From: Taibaiella lutea
GTDB lineage: Bacteria > Bacteroidota > Bacteroidia > Chitinophagales > Chitinophagaceae
NCBI RefSeq assembly: GCF_008629695.1
Contig: NZ_VWSH01000001.1
Coordinates: 1,143,990-1,207,989, forward strand
Direction: 5' to 3'
Length of the DNA stretch: 64,000 nt
The stretch's first letter is position 1. Each line of letters opens with the position of its first letter. Under the pieces are notes generated by a model. It saw only the letters and a list, made by a program, of their open reading frames with translations. It was not told where the DNA came from and ran no database searches. The translations under genes and the position numbers were made by a program. Below are positions 22,531 through 33,271 of the stretch, piece by piece.

Positions 22531-22717
22531 TTATTTATTCGGATTATCTATTAGCTCTTGTATTTTATTCAATAAATTCTTTGCTTCTGTAGCGAAAAGT
22601 TCTTCATCTAAAAATTCTTGAAATAACCCAGTTTTTGAGTAATCCAATTGAGATTTAATAACATCATGATGGCCTTGCCATTTCAGCCATATGTATTGAT
22701 TATTTAAATTTCGAAAT
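22531..22717 (-). pseudogene. Start-less coding fragment overlapping the end of the DUF3800 gene
   Basis: An open frame of about 60 codons reads YIWLKWQGHHDVIKSQLDYS then KTGLFQEFLDEELFATEAKN and LLNKIQELIDNPNK before a stop. Its composition is typical of real protein, but it has no ATG, GTG or TTG start and overlaps the 3' end of the DUF3800 gene in another frame. It is best read as a 5'-truncated remnant, or less likely as a frameshift extension. Confidence 0.45.
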
Positions 22718-23851
22718 TAGCTTTTCAATTGCTTTGAATTCCTGTGGTTGTAAAACATCTATATCATTTGAACTCGCAAGCATTACAGTATCTCTTAATT
22801 TTTCAATTCTTTTAAGCATAGGGATTATTACTTGTTTACCATGATTTACAAATTTGTGTAAATCTTCTTTACTTGATGGTAGCTTATATCCCATTTCCCC
22901 ACTGCTGCTACTTGAAATTATTACTCCTTTATCTCTCAATTTTGCAATGACTTTTGTTCTAAAAGCATGCACGGTGAGTTGTGGTACTCTTCCAGCATTT
23001 AAGTGGCGCAACAGCTCATTAGTCGAAATGTACTTTTGCTTGCTGTAATTATTGAAGTAAAGAAGGAGCAATTTAGCACAGTTAACTTGGTCGATATCAT
23101 CCTGCTTTTTAATCTCTTTGGATGCGATAAAATGATTAGCAGAATTGACAGCCATACTTGCTATTCTTTCATCAAAGGCAATATCCAAAGGAGTACTTGA
23201 TAATTGATAGCTTGTAACTTCTTGAGGAAAGTGATTTATACTGGAAAGCCTTGGCCTAAGAATCTGTAAGAATTCTGTTCTATTATTACTCATATTATTT
23301 TCATCAAAACAATGGCCTAAAGTGCCTGCTATAATATCAGCTAATTGAATGAAATTACTGTTCTTACTACTTATGAATTCAAATTGGGACTTTGAAAATA
23401 AATCTCCTGTATGATTTGTTTGAACGTATTTCTTGAACTGCCTCATAAAGTCATTGGCTCCATGTTCATCCACTGCAAGTTTCAAATCTGGAAAATTCTT
23501 GAACAATTCACTGTAGACAAGACCATTCAGGAACTTGTAAAATGAAGCTTTATACTTAAACCCTTCCGAGTAAAGCTTTCTCTTATCAGCTACTACTGCA
23601 TAAATACTGAAATCGAGAGCGACCAATTCTCTAAGAATTAATTTTCTTCTTTTATCGTTCTTACTTATTCCAGAGGACTTCATTTCTCCTGTTTGAAAAT
23701 ATTTCTTTCGAATTTCCTCCAGCTTGAGTTCTGTTTCTGATATATTTTCTTCGTTGAATATAACGCTTGCAACAATGAAGTGTGTCGTCTGACTTTCAAA
23801 ATCAAAGGAATTATTCCCATACTCGTCCGCGAAAGCAACTTTATTATACAT
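22700..23851 (-). CDS. DUF3800 family protein with C-terminal extension
   Basis: A 383-residue protein. Start MYNKVAFADEYGNNSFDF is chosen because it follows a -7 box by 15 bp. The DUF3800 core has the acidic residues of an RNase H-like fold: FADEYG at the N-terminus, LKLAVDEHGAN in the middle, and NFIQLADIIAGTLGH. DUF3800 proteins are common in mobile and defence-rich regions and are suspected nucleases; no activity is proven. The last 150 residues (from about 235) are an extra helical domain with a winged-helix look (YISTNELLRHLNAGRVPQLT). A second, shorter DUF3800 gene lies at 27029-27721. Confidence 0.78.
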   Translation of the reverse strand: MYNKVAFADEYGNNSFDFESQTTHFIVASVIFNEENISETELKLEEIRKKYFQTGEMKSSGISKNDKRRKLILRELVALDFSIYAVVADKRKLYSEGFKYKASFYKFLNGLVYSELFKNFPDLKLAVDEHGANDFMRQFKKYVQTNHTGDLFSKSQFEFISSKNSNFIQLADIIAGTLGHCFDENNMSNNRTEFLQILRPRLSSINHFPQEVTSYQLSSTPLDIAFDERIASMAVNSANHFIASKEIKKQDDIDQVNCAKLLLLYFNNYSKQKYISTNELLRHLNAGRVPQLTVHAFRTKVIAKLRDKGVIISSSSSGEMGYKLPSSKEDLHKFVNHGKQVIIPMLKRIEKLRDTVMLASSNDIDVLQPQEFKAIEKLISKFK

Positions 23852-23866
23852 AGTAATGGATTTAAG

Positions 23867-23874
23867 CAAATATA
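23867..23874 (-). promoter_or_regulatory. -7 box (TATATTTG, minus strand) of the DUF3800 gene
   Basis: TANNTTTG match 15 bp before the chosen start; a TTG lies 22 bp upstream, within the accepted -33 spacing. Confidence 0.55.
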
Positions 23875-24018: not shown

Positions 24019-25005
24019 ATGGACTCACTTCAAGATTTTTTTAAAGAATTTAAAAATCGGATAGCTAATCCTATTTTCTTCTCTTTCATTATTGCTTGGC
24101 TACTATGGAACTGGAAGGTCACTGTAGGCTTCCTGATGTATAATCAGGATACATTGAAGAATTACGGTTATTTCAATTACAGCTATTTGATTACTGAAAA
24201 CGCATCATGGGAAAATTATTTCTATCATCCGTTATGTAGTGCATTATTTTATACAATTTTATTCCCCCCTATAAGAGTGGGTATAATAGCTTTTTTAAGT
24301 TGGATGGATAGAATCAATACGTGGTCAAAAAAGAAAATCATGAAGAACGCAACTGTACCAATGAGACGTTTTATGAAAGAAACGGAAAGAACAGATGGGC
24401 TTTCAAAAAAGCTTGAGGACTTATATACAAAGGATTCTGCTATTAAAGACGAAAATGATGATTTAAAAAGTAAACTTAATGATGAAATGAATATAAGTGC
24501 ACAGCAAAGTACTCAATTAAGAAATTTTACTGAGGAAGTTCTTTCTCTGAATAACAATATTGGTGATTTGAAAAATAAACTCTTATTAAGTGAAGAGCGT
24601 ATTCAGCTTTATTCAAAGCAATTTGACCAAACGTTAATTAATGGGGTATGGGAGATTGTTTACAAATGTAAAGAAGAGCCATCATTAAGAAACTTTTCAG
24701 GTGAAACTATTTCTGAACGAATTGTTGTAAGTATTAAGGATGGAAAATTTTATAATAAAATTCCATCTGGTTCAGAATTTATTTGGGCTTATATATTAGC
24801 CTTCAATTATAGTTATTTTGAAAAAACGGTCAACCTGACTCTGCGAATCAGTGAAGATAAATATATTCAGTATGATGAAGGTAAGTCAAGAATTTATTTT
24901 CAAACATTAACTATTCTCCACCATTTAGAGGATGGGCATATAGGAAAGATGACTGGAATTGATAGTGATTTATGTGATGTCAGTTATACGATGTTGGTGA
25001 ATTAA
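24019..25005 (+). CDS. Two-helix membrane protein with cytosolic coiled coil
   Basis: A 328-residue protein of unknown family. The amphipathic start DSLQDFFKEFKNRIANPIFF leads into a membrane helix (about 19-38). A second helix lies near 70-92 (LCSALFYTILFPPIRVGIIAF). Residues about 125-205 form a long coiled coil (KKLEDLYTKDSAIKDENDDL). A beta-rich C-terminal domain (about 210-328, GVWEIVYKCKEEPS) could be the sensing part. It is first in a three-gene operon with a predicted nuclease and a helical protein (gaps 30 and 23 bp). Confidence 0.7.
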   Translation: MDSLQDFFKEFKNRIANPIFFSFIIAWLLWNWKVTVGFLMYNQDTLKNYGYFNYSYLITENASWENYFYHPLCSALFYTILFPPIRVGIIAFLSWMDRINTWSKKKIMKNATVPMRRFMKETERTDGLSKKLEDLYTKDSAIKDENDDLKSKLNDEMNISAQQSTQLRNFTEEVLSLNNNIGDLKNKLLLSEERIQLYSKQFDQTLINGVWEIVYKCKEEPSLRNFSGETISERIVVSIKDGKFYNKIPSGSEFIWAYILAFNYSYFEKTVNLTLRISEDKYIQYDEGKSRIYFQTLTILHHLEDGHIGKMTGIDSDLCDVSYTMLVN

Positions 25006-27028: not shown

Positions 27029-27721
27029 TTATTGCGGAATATGATTGAAAATATTAAATTTGTTTTCATAAGGGAAAGTTTGTAGAGTTAAATCTCTACC
27101 TAATTTTGATTCAAAATATTTAATAAATTCGATTTTTGCAGGATTTGCATTATCCTTCAAGTGTTCCTTTCTCAATTTATATGTGATTGCACCAACAAAA
27201 ATATCAGAAAGTTGAATGCCGATACTATCAGATGATTGAATATGCTGAAACATGTCAAAAGGTGATGAGTGATTAAATTTCTCCGCAAGTACACTCTTAA
27301 TGCCTTTAATTCTCATGCGTCCCTGAGTATCTTTAACGTCAATATATACATTGTAATTTTGATATATATCGTTTGTAGGTGTGACGATTAGCAAATAAAT
27401 TAATTTAAAGTAGTATAATCCTTCATCACCATTATTAAATTTTTCATGATTAAGCACTTTTTTATCATTAATATAAATACATCTGAAGCTAATATTATTT
27501 TCAAAAAATAAATCAATTATTGATTTATAAAATTCTAATTTAGATATGGAAATAGATGTCCATTTAGGTTCAACAAAAAAATGATATTTTTTTTGGTTTT
27601 CTTTAAAAAGTGTTTTTATTTCCCCTAAATCTTGCTGGTCGATTTTGATGTATGCAATTGCCATGCAAGGGTGATTATCGTTTGCTAAATGGCAACTTTC
27701 ATCTATATATAAATTTTTCAA
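27029..27721 (-). CDS. DUF3800 family protein
   Basis: A 230-residue DUF3800 protein with the family acidic residues: NLYIDESCHLANDNHPCMAI at the N-terminus, YNVYIDVKDTQGRMRIKG in the middle, and SIGIQLSDIFVGAITYKLR. An RNase H-like nuclease fold is predicted for the family. It is the middle gene of a three-gene operon whose first gene is an XRE regulator (gap 4 bp). A regulator controlling a putative nuclease is an arrangement typical of toxin or defence loci. Confidence 0.78.
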   Translation of the reverse strand: MKNLYIDESCHLANDNHPCMAIAYIKIDQQDLGEIKTLFKENQKKYHFFVEPKWTSISISKLEFYKSIIDLFFENNISFRCIYINDKKVLNHEKFNNGDEGLYYFKLIYLLIVTPTNDIYQNYNVYIDVKDTQGRMRIKGIKSVLAEKFNHSSPFDMFQHIQSSDSIGIQLSDIFVGAITYKLRKEHLKDNANPAKIEFIKYFESKLGRDLTLQTFPYENKFNIFNHIPQ

Positions 27722-27725
27722 AATT

Positions 27726-28103
27726 TTATTTTATTTTATTTGACAAGCAATCGATAAGATTCATTAACTTGTTGTTCTGTTCTTCAAGCCTTGCAATTGT
27801 TTCTTTATATATTTTTCTTTCCTCTTCTGCAATTCCATTATTTATTGTAATAGCATCGGAAACATTATGTACTGCGCTATTAGTAACCGTTCCAAAAAAA
27901 TGATGGTCAGATAGGCTAATCAAATCCACTAAACTCAGTTTATATAAATCGGCTAATCGTCTTAGCCTGTCAATTTTTATCCCTTCACTGTTACGTTCCA
28001 TTAATGAATACGTATTAGGGCTGATTTCAAGTACATCTGCAACATATTGTTGAGTGTAATTATGAGCCTCCCTTAAAATTTTTAATTTTTCTGATATATC
28101 CAT
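27726..28103 (-). CDS. XRE-family helix-turn-helix regulator
   Basis: A 125-residue DNA-binding protein. The HTH lies at about residues 5-60: EKLKILREAHNYTQQYVADV, then LEISPNTYSLMERNSEGIKI. The C-terminal half ends in a coiled coil (ERKIYKETIARLEEQNNKLM) that should dimerise it. Two palindromes 22 bp apart upstream of its start are likely its operators, so it probably represses its own operon. Confidence 0.85.
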   Translation of the reverse strand: MDISEKLKILREAHNYTQQYVADVLEISPNTYSLMERNSEGIKIDRLRRLADLYKLSLVDLISLSDHHFFGTVTNSAVHNVSDAITINNGIAEEERKIYKETIARLEEQNNKLMNLIDCLSNKIK

Positions 28104-30391: not shown

Positions 30392-30610
30392 ATGAAAATA
30401 GCAATTTGTGTAGCATTCGGCTTAATTACAATTGTTCTCCTTTATATGTGTTATACGAGCCCTGATTTTTTTAAATCAATAGGTGCTGTAGTAGCAGGTA
30501 TAATTTCTGCTTTTTCTGGTGGGATGTCCTATGAACATACGGTCATGAAACAAAAAAGTGGAAGCAACTCCACTTTATATCAGTCAAAAGGTAACATAAC
30601 AATAAACTAA
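30392..30610 (+). CDS. Small membrane protein with C-terminal shared motif
   Basis: A 72-residue protein. Start MKIAICVAFGLITIVLLYMC is chosen for its fit to the promoter and signal. Two hydrophobic segments (about residues 2-20 and 28-45) are followed by a polar tail, KQKSGSNSTLYQSKGNITIN, which is the last 20 residues. The same pattern opens the next gene product as KQNSGDYSNPVQAGRDVIFN (identical at K, Q, S, G, S, Q and final N, no gaps). The start codon of the next gene is 8 bp away. Adjacent proteins with a matching short motif at facing ends usually interact through it. Partner function inferred only. Confidence 0.65.
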   Translation: MKIAICVAFGLITIVLLYMCYTSPDFFKSIGAVVAGIISAFSGGMSYEHTVMKQKSGSNSTLYQSKGNITIN

Positions 30611-30618
30611 ATCACATT

Positions 30619-31563
30619 ATGAAGCAGAATTCGGGGGATTATTCAAATCCCGTTCAAGCTGGAAGAGACGTGATTTTCAATGGCCTATCTTACACTGACC
30701 AGCGTGACATGATGAAAGATATTTCGTTAGCTGTATTTAAAGATAATTATCTTGTTTTGCGTGATGAACTTCTATTATTAGTTAATAATAGAGTTGAAGA
30801 ATTCCTTGAGAGTTTCTTTAATAAAATGATTGAAAACAAAATAGATATAGCGCAGTTGAATACTGTAGAAATGCAAAACGATTTGTATCAAGCACAGAAA
30901 TTATATGCTACGAAAGGTGATAACTATCTAAAAGAAGAGCTCAACAGTGCATTAATTGAAAAAATGAAGAGTAATAATAGGCTTATTGATATGGTTATCT
31001 CCGAGTCCATAAAAACTCTTGAGAAACTGACATTACAACAACTCGATGTGCTTACTATTGTTTTCTTGATGAAATATTATGTTTTTGGAGAAACTACAAC
31101 AATCGAAGATTTGTGCTTGGATATTGGATTTGCGTTTAACCCTTTTTTGGAAGGTCAAATAAAGAACATAGGAGATTATCAACATTTGGAATTTACTGGT
31201 TGTGTCAAATATGTTGATGGTTATAAACCTATATGGTATACATTTTTAGAGAATAGTCCTAAAATAGTTAAGCAATATAGCTTAGGCCAAACAATGAATA
31301 TGACCATGATGGGTGGAGCAAGACCAGATATATTTCTTACATCTAAAGAAGGACCCTTTATTGAAGACATTAACAACCTGATTCCTTGGTTTGCAGAATT
31401 GGTTAAGTTTTGGTATGAATCTCCAATGAAAAATATACAACTTACTTCGGTCGGAATTTGCATTGCTGTTAATCATTTAAACATAAAAACCTCCAATAGA
31501 CTTAATATTGATTTAGAAGGCTTATTGACAAAAACAACTTCAAGTTGGATGTATAATTATTGA
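30619..31563 (+). CDS. LPO_1073/Vpar_1526-like family protein
   Basis: A 314-residue, mainly helical soluble protein. It opens with the motif MKQNSGDYSNPVQAGRDVIF shared with its neighbour, then helices (FLESFFNKMIENKIDIAQLN, TLEKLTLQQLDVLTIVFLMK) and a C-terminal domain with SPMKNIQLTSVGICIAVNHL. From memory it resembles the family named LPO_1073/Vpar_1526, which has no known function. It is translationally close (8 bp) to the 72-aa membrane protein. Confidence 0.6.
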   Translation: MKQNSGDYSNPVQAGRDVIFNGLSYTDQRDMMKDISLAVFKDNYLVLRDELLLLVNNRVEEFLESFFNKMIENKIDIAQLNTVEMQNDLYQAQKLYATKGDNYLKEELNSALIEKMKSNNRLIDMVISESIKTLEKLTLQQLDVLTIVFLMKYYVFGETTTIEDLCLDIGFAFNPFLEGQIKNIGDYQHLEFTGCVKYVDGYKPIWYTFLENSPKIVKQYSLGQTMNMTMMGGARPDIFLTSKEGPFIEDINNLIPWFAELVKFWYESPMKNIQLTSVGICIAVNHLNIKTSNRLNIDLEGLLTKTTSSWMYNY

Positions 31564-32317: not shown

Positions 32318-33271
32318 TTATGGTGACAGTATAGGATGAACCATCTTGACAAACAAATCTGAGAACATCTTTTCCAAGGTGTTTTTCCTGTTATTGAAAA
32401 TATAAGTGCATTGTTTGATATATAGCGGAAAATATTTCTTGGATACCGAAACATGAGCTCTGAAAATGCGTTTGTATAGTGACCACAACGATTCCACAGC
32501 ATTCGTTGTTCCACCATTTTCAGACTGGTAAACTTTCTTTTGATGATTACAGGTTTTATGGATATAATGCTTGCTGAAAAATCGGTAGACAGGTAGCTCG
32601 TCGGTTAACAAATCAGAACCTCTTTCGACAAATTGATAAATTAATGGCCGTAGGGTTTCCAGCTCTGCATTAGGTATTATCTCAGTAATAGCTCTTCCAT
32701 CTTTTTCAACTAAACCAAGCACAAGACTTTTGTTCAATAATGCACGACCACGTGGTTGCTTCTTTTTGTCAATATTAAATTCCTTGTATACTTTTTCACG
32801 CCTCTTCTTATTCATCAGAGGTATAGAACCATAGAAGAAACTTTCATCTGTTTGAACAGAGCCCTTCAAAGGTGACCTATCATTTTCTATTAAAAACTCT
32901 CTGGCTATTTTGAGCATACGTAACGCTGTCTTCGGGGATACAGTCAAGACTTTAGAGAGAAATCTTGCGGTCAAGCCTGTCTTGTTACAGGCAAACATAT
33001 GAATACAGTACACCCATTTAGAAATAGGAAGTTTACTACACTTTAAAGGACTATCAGCCAAAGGATACAACTGATATCCACAAGCCTTCCTGTTTCGGCA
33101 TTGAAACGCCCGTCTACCTTTTATACGGGTGAATGGTTTACGATGTCCGCAACGAGGGCATTCTTTCATCCCTCCATAACGCATTTTAAAAATCTTATCA
33201 AGACATGCATCCTCATTAGGATACTGCTTACAGAATTCTTGGTAACTCATGTCGAATTCGACCATAGGCAA
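32318..33271 (-). CDS. IS1595-family (ISXO2-like) transposase
   Basis: A 317-residue transposase that appears intact. An N-terminal zinc ribbon (CPRCGHRKPFTRIKGRRAFQ, then CRNRKACGYQLYPLADSP) precedes an ISXO2-like DDE domain. Acidic residues are seen in SVQTDESFFYGS, SDLLTDELPVYRFF and the late Glu in TTNAVESLWSLYKRIFR. Length is normal for the family. It probably marks a complete insertion sequence of about 1 kb, but I could not define convincing terminal inverted repeats or target duplications in 32266-32317 or 33272-33358. Confidence 0.9.
   Translation of the reverse strand: MPMVEFDMSYQEFCKQYPNEDACLDKIFKMRYGGMKECPRCGHRKPFTRIKGRRAFQCRNRKACGYQLYPLADSPLKCSKLPISKWVYCIHMFACNKTGLTARFLSKVLTVSPKTALRMLKIAREFLIENDRSPLKGSVQTDESFFYGSIPLMNKKRREKVYKEFNIDKKKQPRGRALLNKSLVLGLVEKDGRAITEIIPNAELETLRPLIYQFVERGSDLLTDELPVYRFFSKHYIHKTCNHQKKVYQSENGGTTNAVESLWSLYKRIFRAHVSVSKKYFPLYIKQCTYIFNNRKNTLEKMFSDLFVKMVHPILSP

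Follow-up and report, generated by a model that had tools for sequence, protein, structure and literature searches.

A small membrane protein and an LPO_1073 family protein with matching terminal motifs: a candidate two-gene anti-phage module

The gene pair and its surroundings

The two genes described here lie in a 64,000-nt stretch of DNA, the whole of which is referred to as the window and within which all positions are counted (Table 1). The first encodes a 72-aa membrane protein made up of two hydrophobic segments and a tail that consists of a 20-residue motif. The second encodes a 314-aa protein that carries another copy of this motif directly after the ATG, immediately N-terminal to its LPO_1073 domain. 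A preliminary description of this DNA had placed KQKSGSNSTLYQSKGNITIN at the end of the 72-aa ORF and KQNSGDYSNPVQAGRDVIFN at the start of the 314-aa ORF, 8 bp downstream, with seven gapless identities and a Q-x4-(I/V)-x-x-N pattern common to both copies. All of these points were borne out: the ungapped alignment has identities at 7 of 20 positions, both copies contain the pattern, and 8 bp separate the two ORFs. A promoter and terminator scan gave no usable result.

Table 1. Positions of the paired genes, their parts and a related ABC-3C locus
Feature	Position	Strand	Basis
72-aa small membrane protein gene, proposed effector	30392..30610	+	ORF from ATG 30392, stop ends 30610
Predicted transmembrane segment 1, residues 3-19	30398..30448	+	mean hydropathy 2.72
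Predicted transmembrane segment 2, residues 26-42	30467..30517	+	mean hydropathy 1.68
Motif copy 1, KQKSGSNSTLYQSKGNITIN, C-terminal tail of 72-aa protein	30548..30607	+	best window 20-mer, 29.9 bits
314-aa LPO_1073/Vpar_1526 protein gene, proposed sensor/transducer	30619..31563	+	ORF from ATG 30619, stop ends 31563; NCBIfam NF045477 match
Motif copy 2, KQNSGDYSNPVQAGRDVIFN, N-terminal tail of 314-aa protein	30622..30681	+	second-best window 20-mer, 27.2 bits
LPO_1073 domain, residues 32-298, predicted mostly helical	30712..31512	+	NF045477 match range, AlphaFold2 models
ABC-3C CTD9 locus of genome G535	L359:4566-7788		motif matched by upstream transmembrane (TM) protein

A transposase-like ORF with an N-terminal zinc-ribbon pattern, which we take to be IS1595-like, lies downstream of the pair (32318-33271, -), and the ORFs at 22700-23869 (-) and 27029-27721 (-) are presumably DUF3800-like. 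DUF3800 proteins are often found near defence genes. At 24019-25005 (+), a 328-aa protein with N-terminal hydrophobic segments matches phrog_4780 and phrog_13369 (E 1.4e-13). A scan of the pair and eight neighbours detected no ABC-3C family at E 0.1. The HTH_3 regulator at 27726-28103 (-) has a tail, NSAVHNVSDAITIN, with an NS-x8-ITIN pattern that gives it a superficial likeness to the motif; it was rejected as a third member of the system, as the tail falls outside the best 15 profile matches.

Protein families and predicted structure

The 314-aa protein scores 171.5 bits against NF045477, for which the cut-off is 45 (E 2.6e-50, residues 32-298), and also matches phrog_19542 (E 2.4e-13). The 72-aa protein is weakly similar to phrog_27656 (E 0.025), a family matched at 1e-3 by 14 of 15 aligned small proteins. 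As displayed by the tools, the entries for NF045477, phrog_19542 and phrog_27656 record neither a function nor the shared motif. No NB-ARC or NACHT domain was detected in the 314-aa partner (Pfam at E 0.1, NCBIfam at E 1), and the 72-aa protein has no match above cut-off in the Pfam set scanned, to which a Bell model possibly does not belong. PADLOC models match neither window protein at E 0.1; the small protein of the E. coli homologue pair shows a weak match to the PADLOC 2TM effector model (E 0.017).

The AlphaFold2 model of the 314-aa protein is mostly helical (mean pLDDT 78.4) with a low-confidence N-terminal tail, and that of its E. coli relative has a mean pLDDT of 84.7, with residues 1-24 below 50. 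We were unable to identify a fold match pointing to what LPO_1073 proteins sense using Foldseek or VIA: Foldseek gave no match at E 0.001 for either model, and the best VIA matches among those listed (Z 8.0 and 7.0, in the range that the tool terms uninformative) involve short helical stretches of designed proteins. A PDB sequence search with the partner profile gave a best E of 0.065.

Net positive charge is found after the last TM segment in 30 of the 31 small-protein rows scored; in the window 72-aa protein, the charge after the second segment is only +1. According to the positive-inside rule, positive charges flank membrane segments on the cytoplasmic side, so the tails of the small proteins are predicted to be cytoplasmic. 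Relatives L032, L035, L037, L038, L055 and L082 have a single TM segment.

Conservation of the pair

The window 314-aa protein, used alone as a query, has no match in phages or viral contigs, and a search of 196 related genomes recovered it from its own genome only (1/196). As the other 195 genomes gave no match, the pair is considered accessory. The family was opened instead through PHROGs and NCBIfam profiles and an E. coli homologue. A search with an alignment of three partners yielded 10 loci from genome contigs and 17 from viral ones. Two of these 27 loci (L031 and L039) begin at a contig edge, leaving 25 with upstream DNA, a number that includes near-identical copies (L013-L017; L020/L029; L022/L030; L032-L034/L036).

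In all 25, a small protein with one or two TM segments is encoded directly upstream and ends in the motif; the distance from the end of its ORF to the start of the partner is about 20 bp or less, or the two overlap. The preliminary description had made its reading depend on retention of the motif beside the 314-aa family, and the motif is kept in every neighbour that could be tested (25/25). The partner motif was one of two search patterns, so its presence in the partners is partly selected; the motif of the small protein was no search condition in the 27-locus collection. The Q of the partner motif is invariant in 25 of 25 aligned partners. Throughout the pairs, the small membrane proteins are 55-92 aa in length with 1-2 TM segments. 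A motif-profile search of 148 Bacteroidota genomes returned only the two window copies, themselves part of the profile, below E 0.005; the next match (E 0.0055) is partial and lies in a 31-aa frame.

Strength and specificity of the motif match

Taken alone, the match within the window is only modestly beyond chance. The best ungapped score of the pair is 34, which was reached by 8 of 5000 shuffles and by 7 of 2550 end-to-end pairs of the 51 window ORFs. The same score was reached by 34 of 770 adjacent candidates (a TM ORF and the next ORF) in the examined DNA, the window pair included, and 5 of these 34 are outside the two families. At scores of at least 40, 3 of 29 null candidate pairs are unrelated pairs, some of skewed composition. 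It is the evidence from the family, namely the relatives and a profile ranking, that makes the window motif pair certain: when a position profile was built without the window, from 44 motif copies present in 22 other systems, the top two of 35,160 20-mers were the window copies (29.9 and 27.2 bits). The third-ranked 20-mer scores 3.0 bits, 24 bits below the second copy.

Motifs of the same system match each other more closely, on average, than motifs swapped between systems. This comparison used 23 non-redundant systems, comprising 22 LPO_1073 systems and CTD9 locus L009 (near-identical L014 and L070 were dropped). The mean score was 43.4 for cognate motifs versus 29.3 for non-cognate motifs, a result equalled in 0 of 20,000 permutations; within two broad groups, the permutation p was 4e-4 by score and 3.5e-3 by identity. 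Among the 22 LPO_1073 systems, the cognate score exceeded the swapped score in 188 of 231 comparisons, with 4 ties and 39 reversed (112/153 with 37 reversed when four NIQG-type systems are left out; 20/21 for the window). The cognate excess could partly reflect shared ancestry or base composition; composition shuffles give little of it (1.2, sd 2.0, maximum 7.2, versus 14.1 observed). In only 3 of 23 systems does the tail score highest with its own partner, and the window partner comes 8th of 23 for its tail, indicating that specificity within the window motif type is weak.

Codon agreement at identical residues is what codon usage predicts (83 of 205 shared in the 23 systems versus 82.7 expected), suggesting conservation of the protein sequence rather than recent DNA duplication. 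In the window pair, none of the 7 identical residues share a codon.

Motif-like peptides in other proteins

Matches of the IQAGxDVN type were found at 31 loci in viral contigs. Six are motif pairs (L055, L060, L070, L075, L077 and L082, with L075 on the same contig as L029), three are solo phage proteins (L069, L073 and L079), 16 are long proteins of 321-893 aa that by eye are partly baseplate- or spike-like, and six are short or doubtful frames. Because similar peptides occur in long and solo phage proteins, the peptide alone is not diagnostic of the system.

The solo protein at L069:368-1285, from a viral contig, is 305 aa in length; its single chain runs from one TM segment through the motif to a domain that has no confident NCBIfam match. 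The other two are a 161-aa frame at L073:4260-4745 (reverse complement) and a 214-aa frame at L079:5016-5660, each with an internal IQAGxDVNI motif and no matched neighbour. Stretches resembling NIQAGxDxNI are found in long baseplate/spike-like phage proteins such as those at L058, L061, L062 and L064, suggesting that the motif may resemble a beta-helix repeat.

A two-motif DNA pattern gave at least 245 matches in at least 239 loci of viral contigs, with no real pair among the matches listed. QAG-like DNA matches elsewhere in the window's own genome (L001 and L003) were set aside as chance: no motif protein is present among the ORFs listed and no profile match exceeds 12 bits. Ten weak small-protein alignment matches from other Bacteroidota (L042-L051, E 0.003-0.01) were likewise rejected, having no profile match above 12 bits.

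ABC-3C CTD9 loci

Genome G535 encodes a small protein that matches phrog_27656 (E 8.2e-7). Its gene is followed by one for a 195-aa protein, which likewise carries a motif copy, and then by two more. The 195-aa protein is an ABC-3C CTD9 protein (PF20285, E 2e-30, residues 80-194), in the N-terminal part of which the 20-residue motif is present and no enzyme domain was recognised; the other two genes encode a Middle Component 5 protein (PF20291) and an SMC-like ATPase (PF13476). Each of these three families scores above its cut-off, making up the ABC-3C/Lamassu set. ABC-3C is placed in the Lamassu superfamily in passages of PMC10586767, where the N-terminus of LmuA is usually an effector enzyme and its C-terminus may dock.

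When 149 genomes of the G535 family were searched with the 195-aa protein, six CTD9 loci were found, the query included. In all six, a TM protein of 55-81 aa is encoded immediately upstream and its tail matches the N-terminus of the CTD9 protein, with 0 of 2000 shuffles as good in each case. Three motif types are present: the window type (one locus), QKxIDxxGGDVVGRDK (one) and NKxIGGDDNS-like (four). Motif scores are 59-89 within types and 13-36 between types.

Six CTD9 records were also found on plasmids, and all were examined. L369 has a matched pair, VNQSGSKAGGDIVGGNKS / VTQSNASAGGDIVAGNKT. In the CTD9 locus of an Agrobacterium sp. plasmid (L360:4477-4780), the small TM ORF is frame-broken just before the motif tail. 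The other four carry a DUF676 serine-esterase domain (PF05057, above cut-off), which is fused to CTD9 in L367, L368 and L370 and is a separate overlapping ORF in L358. No hydrophobic ORF lies within 700 bases upstream in L358, L367 and L368; L370 has a few hydrophobic frames upstream, none of them motif-tailed. In total, 7 of the 12 loci have matched motifs, one is frame-broken and four have the esterase: among the loci compared, the TM protein and motif are found only where the esterase is missing.

In six CTD9 pairs (L362-L366 and L369), codon identity exceeds expectation (54/81 versus 40.7, sd 4.2); L009 has 4 identical codons of 10 (4.8 expected). Part of the CTD9 match may therefore be recent local DNA copying, and the excess suggests that motif replacement at these loci may involve the same process.

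Genomic context in E. coli prophages

Of 5426 complete E. coli genomes, six contain the pair region with coverage of 80% or more of the query, and each copy adjoins a phage portal gene. In the two regions that were opened, the pair is located between the replication gene (gpA) and the portal gene (gpQ) of a P2-like prophage, and three adjoining genes match PADLOC Hp1, Hp2 and Hp3 (E 2e-157 or better). By name, we take these to be the validated three-gene system (3HP) of PMC9122126. The P2 gpA-gpQ interval is an anti-phage hotspot according to passages of the same paper. Three further prophages were opened, of 933 records with a portal gene: the first carries an AIPR-family gene, the second an ATP-dependent endonuclease gene, and the third the Hp1-Hp3 genes, where a different small gene occupies the site of the pair. 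Several copies of the pair are found in prophages or on plasmids.

Interpretation

We consider the pair to be a two-gene module, probably one that is located on mobile DNA and acts in anti-phage abortive infection, in which a membrane effector is coupled to a sensor by the motif (rough probability 0.6). The motif pairing is well supported, and the comparison of the 12 CTD9 loci supports an effector role for the small protein. Together, the data suggest that a membrane effector is activated by an immune sensor through a tag common to both. The best reading of the coupling, by analogy, is a homotypic beta-type motif similar to those of amyloid signalling, although no NLR and no recognised Bell domain is involved. 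We infer that the motifs bind each other in a beta or amyloid structure, that a phage trigger leads to membrane damage and thereby to defence, and that the LPO_1073 protein is the sensing partner.

In the proposed mechanism, the 72-aa protein would act as a small effector in the membrane, its C-terminal tail facing the cytoplasm, and the LPO_1073 protein would be a sensor/transducer with a disordered N-terminal tail. Infection, sensed via this partner, would trigger the LPO_1073 protein to oligomerise; once clustered, the sensor motifs would act as a template on which the membrane-protein tails join them in an ordered beta assembly. This assembly would gather the transmembrane helices and so damage the membrane.

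The main rival to this model is a constitutive membrane tether, in which the motifs form a small permanent beta complex that holds the LPO_1073 protein at the inner membrane. The LPO_1073 protein would itself act (for example, in superinfection exclusion); assembly would not be nucleated, and the small protein would not be an effector. An anchor could well look like the small protein, which has little beyond one or two TM helices and the motif (only one helix in some relatives); the L069 protein, in which the motif links a TM segment to another domain, and the motif-like peptides of long baseplate/spike-like phage proteins are also compatible with such a role. However, the small TM protein and motif occur in the examined CTD9 loci only where the esterase domain is missing. 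As this esterase occupies the position of the LmuA effector described in passages of PMC10586767, the small protein is better explained as an effector than as a mere anchor, and we regard the tether as unlikely. A toxin-antitoxin system, in which the partner would hold a small membrane toxin inactive through the shared motif, is improbable. The two adjacent genes, with short or overlapping junctions and the small TM protein encoded first, and the several copies in prophages or on plasmids speak in favour of such a system; however, in the ABC-3C loci a middle component and an SMC-like ATPase accompany the motif partner, an arrangement more in keeping with activation than with neutralisation. 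To our knowledge, a matching homotypic motif is not usual in toxin-antitoxin pairs.

The motif match could also have arisen without function, from duplication of local DNA or from sequence of low complexity. The motif has many polar residues, three of the 29 high-scoring null candidates are unrelated pairs, some of them composition-skewed, and the six CTD9 pairs show the codon excess noted above (54/81 versus 40.7). However, the 23 window-type systems have no such excess (83/205 versus 82.7) and the window pair shares 0/7 codons, composition shuffles yield an excess of 1.2 versus the 14.1 observed, and the motif persists in distant bacteria and in prophages, its Q being invariant in the partner. 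This explanation is already largely refuted and we consider it highly improbable.

Beyond the membrane effector and motif-coupled sensor proposed for the window pair, short homotypic beta tails of amyloid type may form a portable adaptor code in ordinary unicellular bacteria and in prophages, in which detachable effectors with 1-2 TM segments are joined to unrelated sensors by several system-specific motif types. We advance this generalisation tentatively, at somewhat less than even odds. If it is true, the sensors would include at least LPO_1073 proteins and Lamassu-type ABC-3C complexes, and amyloid-style immune signalling would not be tied to NLRs or to multicellular bacteria: the logic of effector motif and receptor motif, so far that of NLR systems in fungi and multicellular bacteria, would reach NLR-free defence on prophages and plasmids. 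A separate membrane protein could be the means of killing in Lamassu-type systems that have no enzymatic effector domain, a first testable function would be available for the LPO_1073/Vpar_1526 and phrog_27656 families, and natural motif pairs would be available for testing the orthogonality of beta-assembly signalling in E. coli.

Comparison with known systems

Dyrka et al. are said to have described the BASS motifs of bacterial Bell-NLR pairs in 2020. The N-S-x-x-(I/V)-Q-x-G core of the present motif presumably resembles the RHIM-type core (RHIM / fungal PP / BASS3). No known amyloid-motif family was matched in Pfam or in PDB sequences, in two tests of low power: ten tail peptides (30-36 aa) matched 0 Pfam families, RHIM included, at E 10, a setting in which HMMER filters drop weak matches, and no RHIM was found among PDB sequences with the motif profile, the power of which is low at 20 residues. 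No papers on such motif pairs or on LPO_1073 were found in the open-licence PMC literature, represented mostly by titles and passages.

In the passages available from PMC7889193, PMC9815663, PMC8086366 and PMC12261475, repetition of a motif in adjacent genes is the discovery criterion for BASS/Bell-NLR systems, which carry the BASS at the C-terminus of the Bell protein and at the N-terminus of the NLR and occur in multicellular bacteria and archaea. The systems described here resemble these in that a membrane-targeting protein has a short C-terminal motif that recurs at the N-terminus of the protein encoded by the following gene, the motifs match within a pair, and several motif families exist. 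In contrast to BASS systems, the partner is an LPO_1073 or ABC-3C CTD9 protein rather than an NLR, the membrane protein (55-92 aa, 1-2 TM segments) has little room for a Bell domain, and the pairs are found in E. coli prophages and other bacteria. The preliminary description had seen in the matching motifs the signature of amyloid-like or beta-strand signalling pairs; the C-terminus/N-terminus architecture of such pairs is indeed present. As no NLR signature was found in the partner, we regard the pair as a variant of BASS-like systems and not as a member.

A further likeness is to the EADs, which passages of PMC8195603 present as small non-catalytic adaptors common to the components of conflict systems. 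EADs are small domains, whereas the motif described here is a 20-residue tail modelled with low confidence. The link to Lamassu/ABC-3C systems is one of gene neighbourhood, as CTD9, Middle Component 5 and SMC-like ATPase genes adjoin a small protein of the same family as that of the window, and the motif-bearing CTD9 loci have a motif and a separate TM protein where others have an esterase domain.
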